This document shows, piece by piece, positions 12,694 through 42,741 of a stretch of 64,000 nt of DNA (position 1 is its first letter; every line of letters starts with the position of its first letter). The stretch is from Quercus robur. Its lineage: Eukaryota; Streptophyta; Magnoliopsida; Fagales; Fagaceae. Where the stretch lies: the NCBI RefSeq assembly GCF_932294415.1, contig NC_065542.1, positions 265,501 to 329,500 of the forward strand, read 5' to 3'. Under the pieces are notes generated by a model. It had not been told where the DNA came from, ran no database searches, and worked only from the letters and a program-made list of their open reading frames with translations. The position numbers and the translations under genes are program-made.

Positions 12694-13246
12694 CCTCTCT
12701 CTCTCTCTCTCTCTCTCTCTGCGACCAAACCGATCGCCCGCTACCGAAAGCTTCCCCCAAATATCTCTTCCTTTCGTGCTCTCTCTCTCTCTCTCTATGG
12801 GCCTAGCCCATAACTCTGTAGGCCCAATTCAACTTTCTGGCCCTCCTCGTCCGGTCACACCATACCATTTTATTTTATTTTATTTGAGTTCTCAATAATA
12901 CCATTTAACATGTCTGAATTAGAGAAAAAAAAAAAAAAAAATTGAATCTAACCTCATATTTTGCATAGGAAACCAGTCATTACACAAGGGAGGAATTTAG
13001 AGAAAACTAATTTTGTGACTCTCAAATTGAATGTAGGCAACTGCAGCCTCTTTTTAAAACTAATTTTGCTTTGCTATTTAGAACCAAAAAATGTAATTTG
13101 AATTTTGGAAAATAAAGATAGATTCAGAAATGAAAGTAGAAACTATAAAAATCCCATGATTAAGCCCAAAAATAAACATCGATCCCACAAATCAATGAAC
13201 AGTAAACAAAGTCATTATTAATGTTCTTTTAACTCCAAAAATCTAC
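12694..13246. other. Intergenic region with (CT)n repeats; 5' region of the release-factor-like gene
   Basis: Two CT microsatellites (about 12695-12720 and 12780-12797) flank the start side of the minus-strand release-factor gene. The rest is AT-rich and probably holds the 3' UTR of the SnRK1 beta gene. No further gene was seen. Confidence 0.5.
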
Positions 13247-25555: not shown

Positions 25556-28500
25556 TTATGAACCTTCAGGAGTAATTACCATTGATGCCAGGTCCAATTC
25601 TTTATTAGAGTCAATCACATTTACGTAGTCATAATAGGGATTCACCTGCATCCATTAAGAAACAGTCACCAACAAAATAAAAAAAAAAGAAAGTGTAGCT
25701 CTGATATAGTCATAACTTGCATAAAACAAACTAACAAATATGAAATACAAAAGCATTTGCTCCCACCGTACATCCCAATGTACTCAGGTTGGCTATAATT
25801 TTTAATAATATTTTACGTTTACCTATCAAAAAAAAAAAAAAAAAAAAGGAAATACAAAAGCAAAAGCACCCGCGATTATGGAGCTTGCCGCTTTGATTAT
25901 CCTCAGACTCTCGGAAAATTTGTATAAAACCTGAAAATAATCATCATTTTTTTCCAATTAAAAATGAGTGTTATTAACTACCTGTGGTCTTGGAGCTATT
26001 GCTTCAAAGCTGTAAAAATTTGGATTATCAAAATTAGGGGGTTCCAGAACAATGTACGCCCCTTTATTTTTGTATCTTTCCTCTGTTGCCTGCATGGCAT
26101 ACAAGACATTTTATCAGGACAGATTACAGATGATGCAGTAAACAATATGAAAAGATTTAAATTCAGTAATTAAAACACAAGGTTAATTAAACAAAATCAG
26201 AAAACATTCTTCAACAGTGGCATAAATCCATACTTCCTATTTAGAGATGGAAATTCTTTAGCATCAACTCTTAAATAAAAAATGAAATTAGGGGTAATCT
26301 GGTGCAAGACCCGTAACTGTTCTTACAAATGATTGTTTTTACCTTCTCCATCAATGAACATAATGTGCACAGAAGCAGTTTAAGGTTCTTTCTTCTGCTA
26401 TGTTGAATGTTAACTAAATATATCCAATTACAATGATTCGCTTACAATCACAACACAAAGTATGGCCACATATGTTACTGTTACCTATTTAAGGAAGGAG
26501 TATCTTTTAGCTTTTGAAAAGAAACAAATTTAACACCTTCAGAATTTAAAACACTTAAGAACATGCTTAGATGAGCTTATTACCATTGGATAATTTGTTC
26601 AAAAAACAAGTTGTGTCAAAGTATAGTTGTACCTAATAATTTGGCAGTGAAACCAAGCTGTCATTTTAAGCTAAAGTGAACTTTTTTACATGGATAGTTG
26701 CACTAGGAAAGATTTTCACGTTGGATGATTAAAAAAAAGAGGAATATGGTTGTAGTGGATAAGTGGTGTATGTGCAAGAAAAACGGGGATTGCATAGATC
26801 GTTTGCTTCTACATTGTGATATTGGTCACAAATAACAGTCTCTGGCCTTATTTCGGGTGTTTTAGGTTATGCCTAAGAGTGTGGTTGATTTGTTGGCATG
26901 CTAGAAGGGGCGGTTTGGAAGGCATCAAAGTGCAGCTATTTGGCATGCAATACCTTCTTACATAATGTGGACTATTTGTTGAGGACAACATCCTCTCTTT
27001 TTTTTTTTTGCTTTTGATAAATAAGTATTGCATGAAAAGGGCACAGCCCAAGTAATTGAATGATCCACAGTGGAGATGAAGATGTTATTTTTACCCTCCA
27101 GGTATAACCAGATGGCTGCTGCTAGTGACCGCTCTTTTTCTAATTTGCTTGAGTTTGTTGACTTTTGAAATGTTTATATGATCTTTTTAGCATCTTATCT
27201 ATGTACTTGGGCTAATCCCTTCTATGGTATGGTTATTAGTTAATAAAATTTCTTTCTTACCTTATGAAAAAATACTGATTTGATCCCTACATTTTGGTGT
27301 CATGATCAATTTGGTCCCTACATTTTGATAACAGTCAATTTGGTCCCTGTTATTTTCAACATACAGTCAATTTGGTCCCTACCGTTAACTTATTAACGGA
27401 AAATGCCTACGTGACAAACGGTTTGTAAGGTTGACATGTCTAATATTAAAAAATTAAATGAGATGATGACGTGTCTAAATTTTATTGGCCATGTCAGTGA
27501 TTAGTTGGCAAAAAATGCCACATCATCTTTTATAAATATACTTCTCTTCTTTTCTTTTTTTCCTCTCTCTATTTTTCTTTTAACTTTCTTTAATCAAACA
27601 TAATTTTCATTTTATTTTCAATAACAATTTTCTTCATTGTTTCGGCAAACAACCATTGAATGTGCATAACTATCTCACCTGGTGGAGACCATGATTCGGA
27701 AACCCCTCTCTCTCTCAATAATTGTGGGTTATTGTGTTGTGTTGTGTTGTATAGCAAGTGAATGTATAGTAGCCAAGGCCACTAGAAACCCATACAGAGG
27801 AGAAAAACTTTCATATGCAGTTGTTAACCAAACGAAGAGGACATGGATCTGATCCGAGTTGCATGTCAAATTGGCAAACTTGAATAGAGCAATCATTCTA
27901 GACCATTTTGAATTAGAATCGGAGGTCCACTAAGGGGCTGGATTTGGAGCAACTGGGATTTGGATCCACATGGGAGAGGAGGATGAGGAGGAGAAATCCC
28001 AAGAAGGTTAGTTTCTAAGGCATGAGATTCGGATTTGGAGATTGGGAGAAAGAGAGGTGGCACAAGCACCAGTGGTTAAGTGAGGAGTAGGAGATTGGGA
28101 GAGACGGAGGGCTGTCCTGGGTTTGGGGAAAGAACAATGAAGAATGTTCTGGGTTTGGGAAGAAGAACAATGAAGAATGTGGGAAAATAAAATTAATTTT
28201 TAAAGAAATCGTAGGAAAATTGAAAGAAAAAATAGTGGAAAAAAATTGGAAAAGAAAAGAAATATATTTGTAAAGGTTGATGTGGTTTTTTTTCCAACTA
28301 ATCACTGAAATAGCTAATAAAATTTAGACATATCAACATCTCATTTAATTTTTCAATTTGGTAACACCAACGGTACAAACCGTTTGCCACATAGACATTT
28401 TCTGTTAATAAGCTAACGGTAGGGACTAAATTGACTGCAAGTTGAAAATAATAAGGACTAAATTGACTGCTACTAAAATGTAGGGACTAAATTGATTATA

Positions 28501-31500
28501 ACACTAAAATATAAGGACCAAAATAGTGTTTTCGCCAAAAATAAATACAACTCCGAAAAAATTTCTTTCTAACTATTTAAAAAAAAAAAATGTAACTCTG
28601 ATAAAACAATCTAGAGAATAGCATTTAAATCAAACTAAGAAATGCATGTGTGTATACCTATCAAAAATATTAAAAAAATAAATGCTTGTGCGTATATGTG
28701 TGCGAGCTCACAGAATGAGACCTCATTAAGTGTGAATGTCTAGAGTTCTGAAGTTTCATCAAAATGAGCAAATCCATGAAATTTTGAAGGAACATTCCAT
28801 CATTAATCCTTTTTTTTATAAGTAGATAGTGGGGAAAGGGGAGTGTCGAGGGGGGATTCAACCCAAAAACATGGGGCACTACAAAGGATGCTATTATCAC
28901 TAGATTATCACTTGAACCCCAATCCATCATTATTACTATATATTGATGAAGATTGACTGTTCATGAAAAGTAATTATTCCCATTTCAAAATATTTTCCTC
29001 TTATTTAATAAATTGTAATAGTAACTAGTTTCCAATACAATAAGGAAAAAAAAAAAAAAACTCATTCTAAATGTTATAGAACGCATTCAAATATTTCTTT
29101 AGGTAAAAGCATACAAGAAGAAATTCATATAGATATAAGCATGAAAAAACACATGGAAGCAACAAATCTAAAAAGAGAGGAGCCTATAGAAACCTGAAAC
29201 TGCGGGTAGTCTGGAGCACTAAACACAGTGATCAGCTTCCCTGACTCCACAACATGATCAATGGTATATCCTTCATCCATTCCTCCAAAACCAGTCCTCT
29301 TTTCCCTCACATCAGGGCCTTCATGTGATCTGATGATTAACTGGGATGAAATCAACAAATGATAACCACAATATTAGTTTGAAAATTAAAAGCCAGCATG
29401 TTTCCATAAAAGATTAACACCAACAAATAAGTTAACAAATAAACACAAACAAGTGCAGAGAAACTGTATAAATGGTTTTACTATGGAGTGTCGTATGTTG
29501 CCCCACTTTCAACAGCAACAGGCGGTTTCATTTAGAGTAAAGCAAGACGGACCGCAAAACCATATTTTGCTTATAAGTTATAACCATCAAATAGAACTCC
29601 ATGACCATACACAACTATTAAAGGAGCTGCCAATGGACCATGGACCAAATGGCATCTCCTCCCCCCATAAGAATAAGGAGTATAGCATGAGGATAGTGTT
29701 CAATCCCATATTGGTGGGAGTTTTATTTACATATCAAAAGAAAGCCATTAAAGAGTTATATTGTATCGTCCAGAAAAAGAAAAAAAAAGTTATGTTGTCT
29801 TTTTACTTCAAGTCAGAAGTTGTAAAAAGTATCGGTTAAGATGGTAAACAACTTCAGTAGCGATAACAAAAAATAAAAGTAAAAAATAAACCCATATTTA
29901 AAACTAGCTACTTAATAAAAAGGGAAAGTATGAGTCAAGAAAAGCACAACTGTCAGCTACTTCATTACATTTATATGGAAAAGGAACAATAATGATAATA
30001 AGATGTATATAATATCTTTATTAAATGACATATATGAATGCAAACATGAAATATATATTTTCATAGATTTTGAATATCAAAATGACACAAAAGATAACCA
30101 CATTTATTCAAAATTTAATCTTATGTGCAATAAATCAATTAATATATATATATATATATATATATAGTTAGGCTGAAATTTTCCATTAAGCAATTAGAGA
30201 TTACCAGAAAATAAACCATGCCCATTATGAACAATATCACAAGATAGCCATATCAGCTCTAATTAAAACGGTTTTTTGAAATAACCTTTAGATTGAACTT
30301 TTTGAGGAAGTCTTCAGTGCAATCAGGACCCCACAATAGTCCAATGTTTCGCTCTTTATTCAGAGAAAGACCAAGAGTCATTGATGGGTCTGACCATAGC
30401 ACATCACCAGGAATCAGATTTAAGCCTTCAACTGGAGGATCAAGAACAAACCTTCGAGCTCTAGATAATTCCTCCAAAGAACCAAGAGATAATGACTCGG
30501 GCTCAGAGTTGGAACTTAGTTTACGACTCTTCTTCTTCCCTTTCGATGTCTTTGATTGGGTCAAAGGTATGCTGCGGAAAAGCCCTCCATGAGCGGTAAA
30601 TACACATCCCGCTATAACAGAGGCCAAAGGAAGCCCTTCGAAGCACCCCAAACATTTCTGATACACATGCTCACCTTTCTCTCCATATTTTGTCAGCACC
30701 TCCTTCTCAAAGCCATAAACAGAGGTGCAATACTTGGATTCATGATTTCCACGGAGAAGAAATACTCTATCTGGCATAAAGACCTAGCCAGAATATCATC
30801 CCATAACAGCATAAATTCATCAATTACTAAACAATAATTTAAGAAGAAAAAAAAATCATATCTAATGTACAAAACTCTCACTTTTACAGATCCTGAGAAG
30901 TAATTGGTAGGCGACCTTAACCCCAATTTAATCAATAATTAGAAATTTATAGCTTTAACAAAAACAAGCTATATGTATGCTAAATATTGTAGAAGATGCT
31001 ATTATTTGAGAATGGAAAATGCTAAGGCTACACTAATTTTTAATACACAGGGTTTACAAACTAACAAACTGACATGTTGGTGAATGTGATTGGTGGGTTT
31101 TAACAGCATAATAAATGAATTTATGTATTACTTTCTGTGACTAGTGACAGTTTGAAAATTTTAGGTAGTAAAATTTGTAGTATCCATAACATCACTCTTT
31201 GCAAAATGAACATGAATCAAACATGGAACTTAGAGATTAAGCAAACCACTAAGAAGGATATAGCTTGTTTTAACAAAAACCATACATCTCTAACAAATAC
31301 AAAGTAGCTTACAAGAAGATTATGATTGAAATTATAAAAAAAAAAAAAAAGTTCAAAACTTGCTGAAACTGTAACAAAGTAAAGTTGGAATTTTGATTAA
31401 TAAGAGAGAAATGAAATACCTTCCAGGCCAACAAGAGAAGAAAAGTCTCAAGGCCCCAAGCTCCATGATTGACATAATTACCATTGAATACAAAGAATTG

Positions 31501-31883
31501 ATTTTGAGAAGGAAACCCAGCTTGTTTCAATAGAAAGATGAGATCATGCATTTGGCCATGAATGTCACCGACAACAACGACAGTGCTCGACTTGTCAGGA
31601 TCAATTGTGAGACAATTAGGTTCCTCGTGGAGGATCTTCGATGCGGCAAGAATCAGAGTATCAAAGACTTGAACTGGAAGTACTGACTGGAATTCCGAGG
31701 GTGGTAGATTCTTGGAAGACCAGTCAAAGGTCGATATCAGATTCTTGATCCAATCAAGATCAAGCTCGCTATTCTCTGGCCATGTTAGCGTTGGTACTTC
31801 TTGTTGTTGCTGCTGCTGCTGCTGTTGTTTTACTAGTGATGCATTAGGATTTTCTTCATCCGCAATCGTAAGTTCACCAAGTT
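25556..31883 (-). CDS. PP7L: PP7-like serine/threonine phosphatase portion, probably catalytically weak
   Basis: Plant PP7 is a nuclear PPP-family phosphatase; its relative PP7L acts with MAIN/MAIL1 in gene and transposon silencing in Arabidopsis. Five exons (31420-31883, 30286-30783, 29194-29340, 25982-26089, 25556-25645) encode 434 residues after a short polyQ (9 Gln). Family blocks seen: [137 protein letters not shown]. The metal-site motif GDxVDRG reads GNYVNHG, losing two Asp and the Arg, although GDIHG and GNHE remain. This points to PP7L more than PP7. Intron 26090-29193 is 3.1 kb and filled with transposon remains. Confidence 0.88.
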
Positions 31884-34168
31884 CTTAAAAAACATAAACA
31901 AATTTGTTTAGTATAAAAACTCAAAAAAGCTCTAAGAAGAGAAATTACTTATACAAAATAATACAGGAAAAGAAAAAAAAATCAATGTATACCTGAGTCA
32001 AGCTTTTCAAATTCCTCAACATCTTCCAGTGCCTTTTGAAGGCTTATTGGAGTAGAAGAAGAACGAAGCCAATCTTGCGCACAAAGGAGGCCCTCAACCA
32101 TCCTAGGAGACAAAGAGCTGCGAAAAGGATCAAGCACACGGCCTTCTATGCTAAATGCAGATTCAGAAGCTACAGTTGATACAGGGATTGCAAGAACATG
32201 ACGAGCAACCAAGGAAAGCACAGGAAATCTACAAGAATTAGCCTTCCACCAATTCAATATATCAAAATATCCATCAAGTTTTGCCAAACCCTCTTCTAAA
32301 TACCTTTCCACCTCAGACTTCTTCTCTAAAGAATTCTCCTCCTCAATTTCTCTCATAAATTGAGCCATCCTCAAAGATCGTCTCACACTCAAAGGCCCAC
32401 TGCTACTACTTCCACTTGACCCCTGCGACAATTGTGTAGACATATTATTTTGTGCATCCCTTCCCTTCTCATTTTTCAGGTATGCTTCATACATTCGAAC
32501 CAAAGCATCTTTCACTTGTTCTGTCTTCTCATCCACCTTAGAAATATCATGATAGAGTCCCTTAAAAGCAAAATGAACATATCGCAATTTGTATCGAGGA
32601 TCAAGAACAACTGCAACATACAACAATAAATTTTGATTGTCAAGATTCTCCCAATATTTATTAAATTTTGATTTCATATCCATCGCCATTTTCTTCAATG
32701 ACTCATTCTCATTTAAACACTCCTCTTCGATTGTATCTCGAATCAACATCAATTCTGGAACAAATTGGTTTGCAGTAACAGCCTTGGAGCCTGAAAACCG
32801 CAATGCAGCATCATAAAAAAGTTGAAGGAACTTCACAAACAACCTAACTTTGATCCAATCTTCCCTCTCCGGAGGCCCAAAAACGTTCTTACCTTTCTTA
32901 CTTTGCCCACAATTTCCATCATCACCATCTTCGTCCTCCTCCCCCTCTCTCAAAGTAGGGAGGAAATTCTTGTCAACCTCCTCCAATCTTTCAAACGCCT
33001 TTTGAAATTTTTGGGCCTTATCCAACATCATGTAAGTAAAGTCCCACCTTGTTGGTACATCTAGGCAAGGTTGACTTTTACTTGATATTGTCTCCCTCTC
33101 CGCACATGCCTGAAGTTTACTCCACCTTTGTGGTGAAGATCTTACATACCTCACAACATTCCTTATCTTTGCTATCGACTCATCCAGTTCTTTTAACCCC
33201 TCATGAACTATAAGATTCAAAATATGAGCATAACATCTGACATGCAAGAACTCATTTTCTAGAAGAGTATCCTTCTTTTCTTTCGTCTTATCCTTCAAGA
33301 ACTCAATCAAACTACTATTGGAACTTGCATTGTCAACAGTAAGAGTAAGAATCTTCTTCAGCTTCCATTGAAACAAACACGATTCAACTGCCCTTCCAAG
33401 TGTGACACCTTTGTGGTTGTCCACTACACAAAAATTGATTATTCTTTTGTGCAATGTCCAATTGTCATCAATAAAGTGTGCCGTGAGACACATATAGTTT
33501 AAATTTTGCACAGATGTCCAAGTATCTGTGGTAAGGCAAATTCTTTGGCCCCTAAGAGCTTTCCCCAGCTTCTTCTTTTCCCTCAAAAAGACATTGAAAC
33601 AATCTCTTGCAATTGCCATCCGACTTGGTATTTTATTTGTAGTCCACTTGGGACAAACTACACGCATAAATCTCTTAAAACCTTCACCCTCCACAATCCT
33701 AAATGGAAGCTCATCTAGGATCACCATCTCAACTAATGCTCGCCTACAATCCTCAACACTAAAAGGTACCGCAAAAAGATCACCACTACCTCCATCAGTA
33801 GTAAATTCAAATGCTAGGGTGCTTTGGCTCTTACCTATGCTATTTGGGTATTTCTTGCATTGCTTTAAAATGTGTGCAATCAAGTTTTTTGTCCCATTTG
33901 CGCTAGTAGCTGCATAATCAGTCCCACAATACTTACAAGCCGCTCTTGCTTTTTTAGAATCTCCACCTCCAACCATAGTAAAATGTTCCCAAACCCAAGA
34001 TCTTTTTCTACCCTTAGTAGCAGCTTCAGCAGTAGTACTCACATTGGGTGGGCATGGAGTAGTAAGGCCTTGGTTCCCTTGTGATGACGTATCAGCTGTT
34101 GCATTTCCACCACTATCACCATGGCCAGTGGTGCTCCCATCAATGCGCATGGGGCTTACATCAGACAT
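25556..34168 (-). CDS. Predicted fusion gene: BED/hAT transposase-derived N-terminal half joined to PP7-like phosphatase
   Basis: Six coding exons: 31993-34168, 31420-31883, 30286-30783, 29194-29340, 25982-26089 and 25556-25645, giving 1160 residues in one frame. Residues 1-725 form a hAT transposase-type protein (BED finger, RNase H-like core, hATC dimerisation region). Residues 726-1160 form a plant PP7-type phosphatase domain. The join is phase 1: GACTCAG|GTATAC (donor 31992-31991) to TTTTTTAAG|AACTTGG (acceptor ending 31884), making a Glu codon across a 109-bp intron. The PP7-like exon has no in-frame ATG, and TAA directly precedes the acceptor frame, so it cannot start by itself. An intron in the 5' UTR (34169-34590) abuts the ATG. 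Without RNA the join is an inference; the alternative is an independent hAT ORF beside a PP7-like gene that has lost its first exon. Confidence 0.7.
26740..27265 (+). pseudogene. L1 LINE 3' fragment (zf-RVT region) inside the PP7-like intron
   Basis: Reading with interruptions, the segment contains CMCKKNG...[10 protein letters not shown] and [11 protein letters not shown], the zinc-binding reverse-transcriptase tail that also ends ORF2 of the intact L1 at 42789-46430. It is followed by an L1-like 3' UTR ending TAATAAAATTTCTTTCTTAC and an A-run. A short T-rich antisense retroposon tail (about 26998-27050) is nested in it. Stops interrupt the frame, so it is dead. Confidence 0.65.
27266..28536. 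mobile_element. Non-autonomous element with about 280-bp terminal inverted repeats (MULE-like)
   Basis: The left arm (27266-27545) and right arm (28257-28536) are long, clearly related inverted repeats built of phrases such as TCAATTTGGTCCCTACATTTT and the AACGGTTTGTACC-like block. The interior of about 710 bp has no transposase. Long TIRs suggest a Mutator-like element. A 9-bp target duplication was not found, so the exact ends are approximate. It lies in the large intron of the PP7-like gene, next to the L1 fragment tail. Confidence 0.7.
28806..28922 (-). mobile_element. tRNA-derived SINE with 10-bp target duplication
   Basis: Read on the minus strand, it has an A-box-like TAGTGATAATAGC, a B-box-like GGGTTGAATCCC and a short A-rich tail. 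It is flanked by TCCATCATTA on both sides (28796-28805 and 28923-28932), an exact target-site duplication. It is oriented with the host gene, inside its large intron. Confidence 0.78.
31884..31992 (-). other. 109-bp intron joining the hAT frame to the PP7-like frame
   Basis: On the minus strand the donor is CAG|GTATAC and the acceptor is TTTATGTTTTTTAAG|AA, preceded by a T-rich tract. The phase is 1 on both sides. A second, upstream AG (CTTCTTAG) is possible but would put a stop in frame. Confidence 0.65.
31982..34168 (-). mobile_element. hAT-superfamily transposase ORF (RICESLEEPER/DAYSLEEPER type), open throughout
   Basis: If unspliced, the frame is 728 codons and ends at a TGA at 31982. 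Domains in order: BED zinc finger about residues 57-106 (C78, C81, H99, C104); hAT RNase H-like core with TTDTWTS (D215) and TVDNASSN (D279); the CxxH motif [10 protein letters not shown] at about 311-320; LDVPTRW; and the C-terminal hATC dimerisation region about 630-715 (SRFPVLS-like, [28 protein letters not shown]). No stop or frameshift interrupts it. A matching 3' terminal inverted repeat and target duplication were not found downstream, so it looks captured or domesticated more than freshly inserted. The final codons overlap the splice donor used in the fusion model. Confidence 0.85.
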
Positions 34169-34590
34169 CTAAAAACAAAACAAAAATTAAATTTTAGAGA
34201 ACACTGATATTTACAAACAATACATACATCCTTAAGCATTCATTTATAAAAGAAATTTTGAGCCCATGAATAATAGATTATCATTTTCTTAAGCATTCAT
34301 TTATAAATGTCAAAACTTGAAAAACAAAATATTTAAGTAATCAAATTTAGACCAGCACATACTCTAGAAGCACATTCCCTATGAAATTCTCAATTTCTTA
34401 CTTACTATCTCGGAGTTACTGTTCTTAGAATACAGCCGACCAAAACGAACTATTAATTTCTCAATTTCTTACTATTTATTTATTCACAAACAATGAAAAC
34501 CTCGAAGAAAATATAAAAAGCAAACAAAAGAACTAAATAATGGACTAGCTAGAACAAAATTTCAAACCCTATAAAAATTTCGAAACATAC
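34169..34590 (-). other. 5' UTR intron of the hAT-PP7-like gene
   Basis: On the minus strand, GAAGAGAG|GTATGT (donor 34590-34589) pairs with TTTTGTTTTTTAG placed directly before the ATG (acceptor 34170-34169). An intron ending exactly at the start codon is typical of host genes and of some hAT elements. Confidence 0.55.
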
Positions 34591-34796
34591 CTCTCTTCAG
34601 AAAATTTCAGACTTCTTCACATAGATTTGGACTTTGATGAGACTGCAAACCCTAAAGGAGGAAAGAGATTGGAGAGATTGATCGAAGAGAGAGAGTAGAA
34701 GTGAAAGGGGAGACAGTAGACAGTAGAGGGAGTGAGTCGTCTGAGTTTGAGCTAGCACTTAGCACTGGACTGGACCAGACCGGATTGGACCACTAG

Positions 34797-34805
34797 TTTT
34801 ATAAA
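34797..34805 (-). promoter_or_regulatory. Candidate TATA box of the hAT-PP7-like gene
   Basis: Minus-strand TTTATAAAA lies about 90-100 bp upstream of the pyrimidine-rich stretch (34675-34730) that would be the 5' UTR. Just inside it, repeated GGTCCAATCC/GGTCTGGTCC phrases may be a remnant of a hAT subterminal region. Confidence 0.35.
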
Positions 34806-36134
34806 TAAGCAAATTACAACATGGTCAATATTGTTTGCTTAATGTTTTATTGTTTATATTAAACAAAATTATTTCAATTTATAAAACTTTGATTTTCATT
34901 TATAAAAATTCCCTATAAATTGGATGATTTTAATATGAAATATTTATCTTGCAGTCAAAAATGAATTTTATAGAATATACACATGTATATACTCATATGA
35001 TTGAGTATGCAGTGACTCAAGATATATTGTTTTTATTTTATTCTTAATAAAATAAAAGTTATGGTCTTTTTATAAATAAATAAAAAAGTGTCTCAAGTTA
35101 AATATTAAAAGTTTAAAATTGTTATTATGATTTTTTTTTTAATTCAGATGAATTTGAGTTCATCACTTACTCCTTTCCCAAAAACAAAAGAAAAAAAATA
35201 TTATTTCTAAATTTTTAATTTTAACCATCACCTTATTATTATTTAATAAATTACATTTTTCTTTTTAGTTCAACTAGTTGATATATGTTTTTTTTTTTTT
35301 TGGGTTGAGAAACACTAGTTGATATAGGTTGGTATTTCTTAAGTTTAAATCACTTTCTTTTCTCCCATGATCATTATGAAATCATATTTAAATTAACAAC
35401 AAAAGACAATAAAATGTTTCAATAAAGTCTGGGGTTATCTTAATTATGTCCTATAAAGTTTAAAATTTCTTATTTGGTCTCTTAATGTTACCTATAGTTT
35501 TGACTAAGAGCTCTTATGAGTTATGTCCATGCTCATGTTGATATGTCGTTTAAGTAACACCTAAGTCTATCACATATGTTTAGTTGATCCTGTTAAATCA
35601 TGCCATGTCATTTTTATTATTTTATATCAATTAAATAGCTCTAAAAAATTTTAAATTACATATAATAAAATAATTTCTTTATTTTATTTTATGGACAACC
35701 TAGACGAGATAAAGACAAAAGGGCTCACAATCAAAACAATAGATAATGTTATGGGATCAAATTAAAATTTTAAAATTTGAAGGGATAAAATCAAAATTAC
35801 CCAAACTATGAGGGGGTACTTTAGATTTCAGCATTAAAAAAAAAAAAAAAAAAAATGGTGAGATGCGTCACGTGGCAAAGGCAAACCTAACAGTCTTGGG
35901 TGTTCATAGAGCTTTTGCAGTACAGTTTGGAAGTGGGGAATAGTTGGTTTGAACTTTGAACTTGGAAATTTGAACATTGATATATCATCGAACATCGTAT
36001 ATGGATGGAAGATGTTCTCCATATTATATTATTTTATATTGTTTTGTATGAATCAAAAGAGGGGACAATTAAATTAAAAAACAGAACAAAAGGAAGATAA
36101 GAAGAAGAAGAAGAAGAAGAAGAAGTTGTGATCA
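34806..36134. other. Divergent intergenic region between the hAT-PP7-like gene and VPS9A
   Basis: AT-rich. A degenerate repeat at about 35430-35830, with opposed phrases like CTTATTTGGTCTC and GGGATCAAATTAAAA, may be an old MULE-like relic. A (GAA)n run at about 36102-36125 lies in the 5' UTR of VPS9A. Confidence 0.4.
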
Positions 36135-39100
36135 ATGGAGGCAGCACCTTCATCTTCATCAACATCAACATCAACATCAACAGGAGGGTCGGTCACATTC
36201 TATGACTTTCTTGATCGAATGCGAAACCCAGCTTCCCTCGATCTTGTCCGATCCATCAAAAGGTATTTAATTTTGTATTTTATATTTTTGATTCCCTTCT
36301 TTCACTTTTAGATTCTTTGCTTTTATTCTTATATATATTGTTGCTTCCCCCCACCAGCTTCATTGTATCGTTTTCATTCTACACGCCCAACCCTGACAAT
36401 GATGGGAAAAAGGTGCAAGACTTTTACTTGTCAATGGAAGCAGCCATTAGGGAACACCCATTGTGGGCAGCTGCTACTTTTGAAGAACTTGACTCTGCAA
36501 TGGAGGTACCCACTACTGTGCAACTGCAATAGAGCGCTAATTACTCTTTTTTTAAAGCTTTTATTAAACACATTGTATGTGTGTTTTAGTTTTAGTTTTA
36601 GTTTTAGTTTTACACAAGGATGATAATAATTTGCCCTTTCATCATAGAAATTTGAATCTCTAGGGCCTAGGGGGATATATCTCTTTCCACTTGACAATAA
36701 ATACACTCTAATATGCTTGTTCTCTTGTGGGAAAACGAATTGTAAACGTAGACAAGTGCGTGCCTGATTTGTAAATTTTAGTTACATATTCAGCCATATG
36801 TTGTACAATGCATACTGCAGGGTTTAGAGAAGTATGTCATGACAAAGTTGTTTTCACGGACATTCGCTTCTGTTCCAGAGGATGCAAAGATTGATCGTGA
36901 AGTCTCAGAGAAAATATGTTTGTTGCAGAACTTCTTGAAGCCCGAGCATTTAGATATACCAGCAGTTCTTCATAATGAAGCTTCATGGCTGGTAGGCATG
37001 CTGGCTTTATTTATGTTTTGGGAAATTTGTCTAATTTTTAACTTACTCTTTGTTGTTTAAAACATGTGTGTTTAGCTAGTTTGCTGATACTAATACTACT
37101 CTTGCTATATATTTTCATGCATGGTATGTTAAGCTTGTTAGTTCCATGGGGATGCTAAGGTGAACTATTATTTATTGAGCATTTCATGATATTATATGAT
37201 GCACCAAGGGGGAAAAGCATATATTAACTAGCAATAACAGAAATTAAATTTTATTCTAGTGAGACTGCTCTAGTGAAGACAAGTAGCATTTAGAAAAGGA
37301 TAGCTTAGAAATTTGAATCCTAATTCTCTATTAAGCTGCTCTGTTGTAACATATAATTTAAAATTCTTAAAGTAGCACTACCAAATAAAACCATGAAACA
37401 TGTATTATATCAGCTCCCTTTAACAGATAAGTAATATAGTCAATAAATGAGTACACAATGGCATGCAGCCTAATATTTTGATTAGGTAGGACCCCTCTTA
37501 TTTTTCACAAATTAACCTTAATTTTTTGCTGCTATTGCACTGCATCATGATTGTAAGCCAAGTTCATTGTTTCCAGACAGAATCCCAGTTCTACTTGCTT
37601 CTGTATAAATAAATAAATAAATACATAAACTTTAAAAATTGTTTCACTCTTATGTAATCGGTTAGTTGCTTTGCATTAAAATAATCAATAGTAAAGGCAA
37701 ATTCAAACCTTGTTATAGTGTCTGCAGGAAAATAGGGTTTATGCTATTGCATAAATGTGTTACATAGATGTATTTTATCTTTTGTATTATGTGTGGCATT
37801 TTATAAAGTCTTGACAGACAATAGGTTTTTAATTTAATAGCTCACTATTTGTAGTTTATGATAGAATTGTAAAGAATTGTCTAAAATAAATTTCACTGGT
37901 CAGACTTCCTTGAGGTGAAAATCATATTATCAAATGATCTTCGGTCCTTCAATTTCTGGGAGTGTATTATATCTCTCTCTCACCCCCCCCCCCCCCCCCC
38001 CCCCCACCCCCAACCCCCATCCCCCTTTTCCTTGTTGAGTTTTTTTGGTGTGAAGAAGTTATAATCATCCCAGAAGTTTGTCTTCCAACAGGTTTTTTTA
38101 AGTGCCTGAGGTGTATTATTTTTTCTTTTATAAGTAGTAGAAGTCTTCATTCTTTTTCTATTAACAGTAAGTTATAATTATCTTACCTCTTCCTCCAAAG
38201 GACAACCCATAATTGTTCCACTTTTTTTTCCCTACTCAGCTTGCAGAGAAAGAATTGCAGAAAATCAACACTTTCAAAGCCCCTCGTGAGAAGCTTTTGT
38301 GCATTATGAATTGTTGTAGGGTCATCAACAATTTGTTGCTCAATGCATCCATGTCAGAAAATCATGCCCTAGCAGGGCTAGATGACTTTCTTCCTGTTCT
38401 TATATATGTTACGATCAAGGCAAGCTCTCCTTGGTAATAAGCCATTTCTGCTAATCATTGTTCTGTTTCTTAATTATTCACATTGTTTGATAATATATCT
38501 GTTAAGTTTAATCTTTAAAATGAGAGATATTTTAGCCCCACTGAACCATACTTACCAAAAACCTGTTTTTTATTCTTTATTTTGAAATGAATAAGTAATT
38601 GAACTTGTAAAAAAGAAATGAATATAGGAACTTAAAGTTGCTATCATTATTGATCAATGTCCATGTTGATTACTTCTGTGTAGTTATCAACATTGTTACC
38701 ATTAACTATGGTGATAATTGTGGTTGATCTCCTTTATCCTTGTGCAGCAAAAATAAAAAAGAAACAAATGAACTAGTACACTATCGTGAATGAAGATATT
38801 ATCTAATGGAGCAAACATGTTCTTTTTTCATGGGATGCAATTCTTTTATTTAAATGCTGAATATTTTGGATGGAAACCACAAGTAAATTAGCATAGTTGC
38901 TAATTTACTTGTGGTGGTATGGTAATTTTTGAGTTAGGACTTAGGAACACGTTAATTATATTTTGGTTTGTATTTGGTGTTTCTTGCTCTTGCTCAGGAT
39001 CTAGCCTTCAATTTGAATGATTGGTATTGTAGATGAAACATTGGAAGTCCTTCAACATCAACTGTTGTTACTAAGTTTGTCCTACATGTATGAAACCACC

Positions 39101-40238: not shown

Positions 40239-40749
40239 CAACGTGTAAGTGTTTCTCTAGTGCAGCTTTTTTGTTCTCTGCTGTTTGTATTAGATAATAA
40301 TAGAATGATATTGTCATTTGAAAGTCTATTCACAATGTTAAATAACTCATTGGAGCTTATCACCTACAATTGATGAATATGCAATCCCTGCAATGTATAA
40401 GAGGTGGCCCAATACGAATAATACACACCATTTAAAAATTAAAAATGCCACCGAAGCAATTTAAAGCTAACTCATCAATTACAGTTCACACTAAACCAAG
40501 TACAGGGCCACCTTCTCCATGGAACCAAACAGTCCCCCATCTCCCACTCTAGTCGAATCCAGCCACCACAGCTTGTTGGTCTCTACAGATCCACTCCATT
40601 TTTACAAAAACATTCAAACAAAGACTTGGTTGGCTTTGGGCTTAGAGGGCCGCTACTAGACATGGCTACTCCTCCAAAGCCGAAGTCCGTGGCTTACCAG
40701 GCTGGCACGTCTCTGGCAGTGCTGCCATGGTTGAACCAAGAGAATACAC

Positions 40750-42741
40750 ATGGAAAATGATATTAGCCTCTCTCGCGAGTTTGCAAAGAATGCAGCACAA
40801 TGGCTGATGTTTAACATTGAACACCTTGTCCTTGGGGAGAACTCCAAACAGTTTTTTACTTTTAGAGAAGGTGACACTGCGTTTACTCTTCAATGGAGCT
40901 CTAACTCCTCTGGTCAGTTCTTGCTGTTGACTGAGCTCAAAGCTGGTGGGCCTAGAAGGTCGCTTATTATTCCGGAAGGCGAAGAGAGAAATGGTTGGAG
41001 GGCTTTTGGTCTGGAACTAAGAAAATTGTTGAACCCTTCTCATTTTGCGGAGGGTGGTAAAGGTCTTCCTAAGTTCATTCCTCAGGTGCGGAGGCATAAC
41101 TTGGAGGCTCAATATTCTAGAACTTTTGCTGAAGTTGTGCAAGGTGTTCACGGAAGAACAGAGCATAGAAAGAATCTAAAGCAACTAGGATTCACAGGCA
41201 AGGGGAAGGTTACTCAGCTAGGAGAGGAGAAAACGGAGTTGAATCTGAGAATTGCAGGGACAAAAGCAAGGGATTTTCCGGTGGGTAAGTCTGATAAGAA
41301 GGAGGTGGTGGGAGGGGTGAGGAGGGAGCAAAGTATTAATGAGGTAGTAGAGGTAGGTGAGCAAAATCTGGCAGATAGGATACGTTTCCCAAGTCCTAGT
41401 CTGTGTTTGAATTCAAAAGATTATGAAAAGGGGAGGAGGAGAGAAGTAAGGAGATCTTGCTGGACAGGGAGAAGTCTTGTCGTGGAGGTTGATGGGACAG
41501 GGAGGAGGCGGGTTTTCTGGGTTAGAAAGAAAAGAGGAGATATGAAGATCAGAAGGGATGTACGGGCAGGAGATTGGAAATGCAGTGAAGAAGCTTCTAA
41601 GACCCTTAAATGGGTTCCACGGGGAACCAACCAGGTTGCAATTAACCCAGCTTTGGGCCTAGGTTCAAGCCCAGTGTTGACCGAAGCTGGTGTGGGCCAT
41701 TTTCAGTCAGTTTTCTCAGGCCCAAGTCTTTTTGAAGTGGGCGAGAGTTCTCTGACTGGAGAAGGAGTTTCGGCCCAGCCCCCGTGGACACTGGCGCACC
41801 CCAAGATCTTCTCCCAGTCTTTCGATCTCGAGCCAGTAGAGTCGGTCCAGTGCGCAGCAGTCTCGTTGGTGGCCGACGGCCCATTCTCCACCGGTACAAG
41901 CTCCGACGAGCCTTGGTTACCCGGTACCAGCTCTGACGAGCCTGGGTTACCCGGTACTAGCTCCGACGAGCCTTGGTTACCCGGTTCCAGCTCCGACGAG
42001 CCTCCGGTTATGGCCGATGGCTCCTCCGCTGCCGGAAATAGCGCCGTCGTGCCCTCGTTACCACCGGGCAAGGTCGCCGGAACCTTCTTTGTCGGAAATA
42101 GCTCTGATGATCCCTTGGGGACACCGGGTAAGTCTATCAAGGGGTTTTCCCGGCCACCGGTTGAATGCTTTTTAGCTGATTTCTTCTGGAGCCTATACCG
42201 GGCTGGGCTTGTGGTATTGGGTAACAATGAAGGGGATAAAGGAGGCTGGGAGAGTTATGCCATTGTTAGGACGGAAGCTGTCCTTGATATTGAGAAACCC
42301 AGTCTGGCAGTGACACCCCCAAAGACAGTGTGTGCTGTCCCTGGGGTGAGTGCTTTGGCGGTGGAAGGATTGATTAGTCCAGACTTGGGTCTGGGTGGAG
42401 AGGAAAGTTTTTCTATACCTCTGTTGTCTAACACTCCCTTTGGATTATCTTCGTCAGCTGAATTGAATTGTGGTAATGAGATTGTGGAGTGTGAGAATAT
42501 GTTGGATATTTCTAGATGGGTTAAGAACAGGCTTCCTAGTTTTAGTAAATTGGTGGGGCTGCCTTTGAGCCGACATGAGGATTTATGCATTGCTTTGTTA
42601 CAAAAGATTGAGAGGGAGACGGAGGCTGCCAAAGTGTTGACCAAGAAAGTAACAGCTTCTAGAAAAGTTGTCATCTATAAGGATAAGGGGAAGAGAGAGC
42701 TGAGGAATTTGCAATCTTCGGTTAATTATGATGGCAGGTAG
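40750..42741 (+). CDS. L1 ORF1 protein (RNA-binding/chaperone type)
   Basis: A 663-codon frame. The N-terminal part ([20 protein letters not shown], then [20 protein letters not shown]) resembles the first ORF of a group of plant L1 elements that lack the usual DUF4283 block; this is recognition by eye. The basic central region could bind RNA. Around 41887-42010 a 10-residue unit ([10 protein letters not shown]) is repeated about four times. A Ser/Pro-rich stretch follows. A small overlapping frame (40662-40760) precedes it. The stop lies 48 bp before the ORF2 ATG. Host function is not implied. Confidence 0.75.

Follow-up and report, generated by a model that had tools for sequence, protein, structure and literature searches.

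Does the hAT-type transposase frame at this locus form a single gene with the PP7-type phosphatase exons that follow it, and if so, how did the two halves come together and what might the joined protein do? The window, that is, the whole 64,000-nucleotide stretch that was analysed, is located at C38:265501-329500 in a 786-Mb plant assembly comprising 42 contigs.

One frame across a transposase and a phosphatase

A preliminary description of the locus had given a span of six exons and 1160 codons with a joining intron of 109 bp, and recomputed splicing (GT..AG introns, open frame) showed this to be correct. The features, numbered within the window, are as follows.

34169..34590, minus strand: inferred 5' UTR intron, with a GAGAG/GTATGT donor at 34590 and a TTTTTAG/ATG acceptor, both read directly
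34168-31993, minus strand: exon 1, BED zinc finger, hAT RNase-H-like fold and hATC, with the start codon for the whole frame
31884..31992, minus strand: joining intron (intron 1), 109 bp, phase 1
31883-31420, minus strand: exon 2, about 11 codons of hAT tail, a poly-Q run, then the N-terminal part of PP7 with GDIHG and GNYVNHG
30783-30286, minus strand: exon 3, PP7, with RGNHE and HGG kept
29340-29194, minus strand: exon 4, PP7
26089-25982, minus strand: exon 5, PP7
25645-25556, minus strand: exon 6, PP7 C-terminus and stop

All five introns within the frame run from GT to AG; exon 1 ends in phase 1 and the remaining exons in phase 0. The joined frame comprises 3483 bases (1160 residues and a TAA) with no internal stop, and one frame therefore spans both halves. 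By itself, the hAT frame stops after 728 codons at the TGA at 31984-31982, and retention of intron 1 would yield an ordinary 728-residue transposase. In the PP7 frame a stop overlaps the acceptor and no ATG is found ahead of the GDIHG motif, so that this half lacks its own start at that place. An exon upstream of the inferred 5' UTR intron would lie above 34590. At the level of sequence, the in-frame join of hAT and PP7 is confirmed as a real observation, and the terminal intron of the hAT relatives together with a second PP7 gene that has an equal junction (both below) suggest that it is more than chance.

Some neighbouring sequence was also noted. Within intron 4, a stretch at about 27263-28580 has no match in PP7-a, another PP7 gene of this genome, and has ends that resemble inverted repeats by eye; it looks like the insertion of a small DNA transposon. 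An exon at 36782-37060 on the plus strand, resembling a VPS9A-type gene, stands head to head with the fusion, so that the promoter region may be shared; Pfam gave no domain in this piece. A 668-codon open frame at 40735-42741, also on the plus strand, gave us the impression of being possibly retroelement-derived.

Pfam analysis of the fusion gave zf-BED (1.6e-7), hAT-like RNase-H (7.9e-24) and Dimer_Tnp_hAT (9.8e-29), and among solved hAT transposases phmmer matched 4d1q (2e-18) and Hermes 8edg (1.2e-17). The exon 1 half, a transposase contained in a single exon, has both the RNase-H-like DDE fold and the hATC region by which the hAT superfamily is recognised. The domains and the open frame together support the earlier claim of an in-frame fusion that retains parts for DNA binding (BED) and dimerisation (hATC). 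Residues D215, D279 and E669, which we take to be the DDE triad, are all present, as are the Cys/His and Trp positions and the BED ligands. The aligned relatives were identical in these columns, except that L007 has N in place of the first D and that gaps occur in L005, L006 or L007, where the longest open frame is short. The intact triad, unlike the situation in DAYSLEEPER (see below), suggests that the hAT half could still function as a transposase.

Counting itself, the hAT half has at least 61 scored matches in the genome; with 1149 candidates, this number is a minimum. The closest among those listed are a copy on contig C40 (97% identical) and then a relative at 58%. Twelve loci from these matches were examined, 11 of them distinct, since L047 and L008 coincide. 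Of the 11, 10 have a phase-1 G/GT donor after the hATC region that agrees in place with that of the fusion to within a few codons; L007 has TT instead of the donor GT. At 10 of the 11 loci there was likewise an acceptor rich in pyrimidines with a short open tail after it, sometimes with further candidates; L006 had no such combination under the filter used. In L003, L004, L005, L007, L008 and L046 the tail starts with E-L or E-F, matching the tail of the fusion. The equivalent donor and phase and the E-L/E-F tail indicate that the fusion uses the last intron of the transposase and carries its last exon into PP7. By this comparison, the joining intron is the hAT family's own terminal intron, which usually precedes a short last exon, and not a newly arisen splice.

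An altered phosphatase motif and an old junction

Pfam assigned the whole PP7 half to Metallophos (1.7e-29) and in the fusion gave only BED/hAT besides, with no hit to the plant mobile domain (PMD). The motifs GDIHG, RGNHE and HGG are retained, and at 31462..31482 (minus strand) GNYVNHG replaces GDYVDRG, a change of three residues. In terms of the motif set of active PPP enzymes (GDxHG, GDxVDRG, GNHE), the first and last are kept and GDxVDRG has become GNxVNHG. The motif is intact in PP7-a and PP7-b, and PP5 has GDFVDRG. The changed positions are presumably those that bind metal and phosphate in PPP enzymes, and the PP7 half is likely to be a pseudo-phosphatase.

The PP7 copies besides those in the window and on C40 are PP7-a (C1:20.21 Mb), PP7-b (C38:2.99 Mb) and a more distant gene on C5. 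Identity to PP7-a is 77-97% in four of the five matched pieces of the fusion and 63% in the last; to PP7-b it is 68-92% over five pieces, and to the C5 gene 47-64% over four pieces. Because some of the pieces overrun exon ends, the low identities are underestimates. By identity, the phosphatase of the fusion belongs with PP7 and not with the PP7L-like C5 gene. The half earlier called "PP7-like" is thus closest to an ordinary PP7 (PP7-a, 63-97%; C5 gene, 47-64%). The C5 gene itself (L045, C5:9707394-9712855, plus strand), which we infer to be PP7L, has GNYVDRG, and one of the three positions altered in the fusion is changed here too.

Part of the locus has been copied to C40.

29036..34750, minus strand: block copied to C40:15673-21365, 98.7% identity over 5734 columns

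The C40 copy, which differs from the fusion by 22 substitutions over 5.7 kb, is young, truncated and frameshifted: its hAT exon has lost 7 bases and its exon 3 has gained 2. A 9-base poly-Q difference was left out of the frameshift count. The block stops inside intron 4, and its ends showed neither an inverted repeat nor a target duplication by eye. The GNYVNHG change is also found in this copy, indicating that the change is older than the copy.

Upstream of its PP7 exon, PP7-b has a stretch of 174 columns at 80% identity that comprises the end of a hAT exon, the intron after it and the tail exon; in the PP7 part the gene is 85% identical to the fusion over 3051 columns including introns. The acceptor AG of PP7-b is changed (read directly), and no hAT body was found around PP7-b by tblastn in the 29.7 kb searched. 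PP7-a has its own ATG upstream and no hAT tail there; its match to the fusion begins only inside PP7. In PP7-b an open frame extends from the tail exon past an ATG, a stretch that is missing in the fusion, and this ATG may correspond to the start of PP7-a, with a weak alignment near it. The hAT tail and intron are common to PP7-b and the fusion, which lie on one chromosome, suggesting that the join is old.

Directly upstream of the hAT tail of PP7-b lies a PMD gene (Pfam PF10536; L044/L053, C38:2993327-2995759, minus strand), whose last donor-like site is 367 bp upstream of that tail. A PMD-PP7 fusion at PP7-b was considered and rejected: the frame stays open with seven acceptors of matching phase, but the best of them have 10 pyrimidines in 14 positions and lie inside PP7-b coding sequence. 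We took the PMD gene as a neighbour; its family, itself included, gave 136 scored matches in the genome. A lone piece that resembles the last exon of PP7 (L053, C38:3004903-3004977, minus strand) is found about 12 kb upstream of PP7-b and is perhaps a remnant of another tandem PP7 copy.

Terminal repeats and constraint

The hAT relative L052 has the inverted ends TAAGGGTGTG / ACAGCCCTA, read by eye, and its flanks ATGGGCAA / ATGGGCAG are alike at 7 of 8 bases, by eye an imperfect 8-bp target duplication. Allowing 3 mismatches, the terminal pattern of this relative (58% identical) had 4 matches in the window against 5.4 expected by chance, none of them flanking the gene. Its subterminal repeat was matched 3 times (0.65 expected), at 12724, 43068 and 53732, and never within 8 kb of the gene. 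Patterns taken from L052, whose protein is just 58% identical, could miss a terminal repeat that is older or of another kind. Among the inverted repeats in 31000-36500, the 25 listed of 104 pairs were mostly A/T-rich and none was like an element end. Searches with tblastn against plasmids and with NCBIfam gave no match. The fusion is now apparently immobile.

Neutral expectations were derived from the introns. Over 1326 three-way columns of introns 2 and 3, the fusion had 60 changes, PP7-b 77, and PP7-a with its stem 286. At the looser rates, in which the indel rate was taken from both lineages, halved, with repeats included, none of 4000 simulated neutral runs kept the frame open for either half. 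The strict indel rate, which rests on four events, counted only the 4 indels in 1581 intron bases that were in the fusion lineage, outside repeats and not a multiple of 3 in length; with it, the probability of no frameshift was 0.004 for the hAT half and 0.037 for the PP7 half. The simulated probability of no stop was 0.0215 and 0.1015, respectively. For the PP7 half, 3.3 frameshifts and 2.3 stops were expected under neutrality, with a combined P of about 0.004. The C40 copy serves as an internal control, having two frameshifts after only 22 substitutions. Neutral drift would probably have broken both halves since the split from PP7-b.

In a codon model, omega for the PP7 half of the fusion was 0.61 and not significantly different from 1 (2dlnL 1.77), so that constraint on this half is indicated by its open frame and not by the way its codons have changed. 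Omega was 0.44 for PP7-b (2dlnL 6.3) and 0.17 for PP7-a with its stem. The hAT half had an omega of 0.16, below 1 (2dlnL 18), a value that includes time spent as a transposon and comes from saturated branches. The NG86 dN/dS ratios, 0.445 for fusion/PP7-b and 0.246 for fusion/PP7-a, were in line with the codon model; the value for C40 (0.81) was not used because its alignment row is frame-broken. The fusion as a whole is probably under constraint, and the PP7 omega indistinguishable from 1, together with the lost active-site motif, suggests that the PP7 half may be decaying slowly.

Origin and possible role of the fusion

The explanation that we favour, and that on balance we consider probable from these comparisons, is a host-transposase fusion gene that has been domesticated and in which a dead phosphatase serves as a scaffold. 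Immediately ahead of a duplicated PP7 gene stands a hAT transposase gene, whose last intron and last exon read in frame into PP7. The simplest order by parsimony would be the join, then a duplication giving the window gene and PP7-b, and then opposite losses, of the transposase body in PP7-b and of the PP7 start region and GDYVDRG in the window gene. Transcription, from a promoter probably supplied by the transposase side, followed by splicing would give a nuclear protein of 1160 residues, with the BED finger for DNA binding and hATC for dimerisation. The catalytically dead PP7 domain would act as a binding surface, like inactive PP7L with the transposon-derived PMD proteins, and by this analogy the protein might have a role in transposon silencing. 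The fusion itself agrees with the earlier proposal that a host gene acquired a transposase half. The direction of that proposal does not stand in the same way: the transposase side gives the start codon and probably the promoter, and so a transposase may be said to have gained a PP7 tail as much as the reverse.

A further step would be that the duplicated hAT-PP7 genes parted in function, with PP7-b acting as a phosphatase only and the window gene as a DDE-intact transposase with a dead scaffold. The window gene would then be an independent module of a transposon domain and PP7 in cis, aimed by its transposase at transposon ends; we put this forward only tentatively and think it rather unlikely. 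About equally unlikely, in our judgement, is that only the hAT half is functional, domesticated or recently active, and that the PP7 exons are passive, rarely translated and drifting. The intact DDE, the lost GDYVDRG and the PP7 omega that does not differ from 1 all fit such drift, but five PP7 exons and their splice sites have stayed open against the frameshifts and stops expected under neutrality.

Two separate adjacent genes, whose in-frame splice is a coincidence or rare read-through, would account for the match of both halves to known stand-alone families. We consider this improbable, as the PP7 half lacks a start codon ahead of GDIHG, the joining intron belongs to the hAT family and the join is common to PP7-b. 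Slightly less probable still is the capture and movement of PP7 by a hAT element (transduplication), in which the three loci with a hAT tail and PP7 (window, C40 copy and PP7-b) would be products of mobilisation. Against it, the window has no terminal-repeat match above chance, with a pattern from a 58% relative, and the C40 block breaks off inside an intron, with no inverted repeat or target duplication visible by eye at its ends.

The domesticated fusion that we favour can be set beside known systems. PP7-type domains have joined the transposon-derived PMD at least twice, in the Brassicaceae (MAIL3) and in grapevine (VvMAIL2.2), and the PP7-clade domain diverged fast after the fusion, according to the portions consulted of PMC7156037. 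Like the window gene, these combine a transposon-derived domain with a PP7-clade phosphatase domain, whereas the partner in the window gene is a BED/hAT transposase, joined through the transposase's last intron. SETMAR, KRABINER and the tetrapod HTFs also unite a transposase and a host domain in one spliced frame (PMC8616336, in part); the window gene differs in that its transposase is N-terminal with the start codon, it is from a plant, and the host part is a phosphatase. DAYSLEEPER and the SLEEPER genes are, like the window gene, hAT-derived plant genes with BED and hATC (PMC3499209, in part), and the literature covered in part describes no phosphatase part in them. DAYSLEEPER lacks the DDE motif (PMC8616336, in the part consulted), which the window gene keeps. 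Within the literature searched, including portions of PMC8616336 and PMC12062965, no hAT-PP7 or similar fusion was found.

Arabidopsis PP7L acts in silencing with the transposon-derived PMD proteins (PMC7156037, in part). This "inactive PP7" is said to lack the residues for a catalytic centre (PMC11180769, in part), a feature it shares with the PP7 half in the window. That half groups with PP7 by identity, however, and its loss of the motif therefore looks separate from that of PP7L. The functional resemblance of the fusion to the PP7L/PMD module is suggestive. The route to such a fusion would be a simple one, the native last intron and last exon of a transposase reading into a neighbour. If true, a further join of PP7 to an unrelated transposon domain, with loss of the catalytic motif, would suggest "transposon-derived DNA binder plus PP7 scaffold" as a recurrent arrangement, and the fusion would offer a direct test of the unexplained role of PP7L in transposon silencing.
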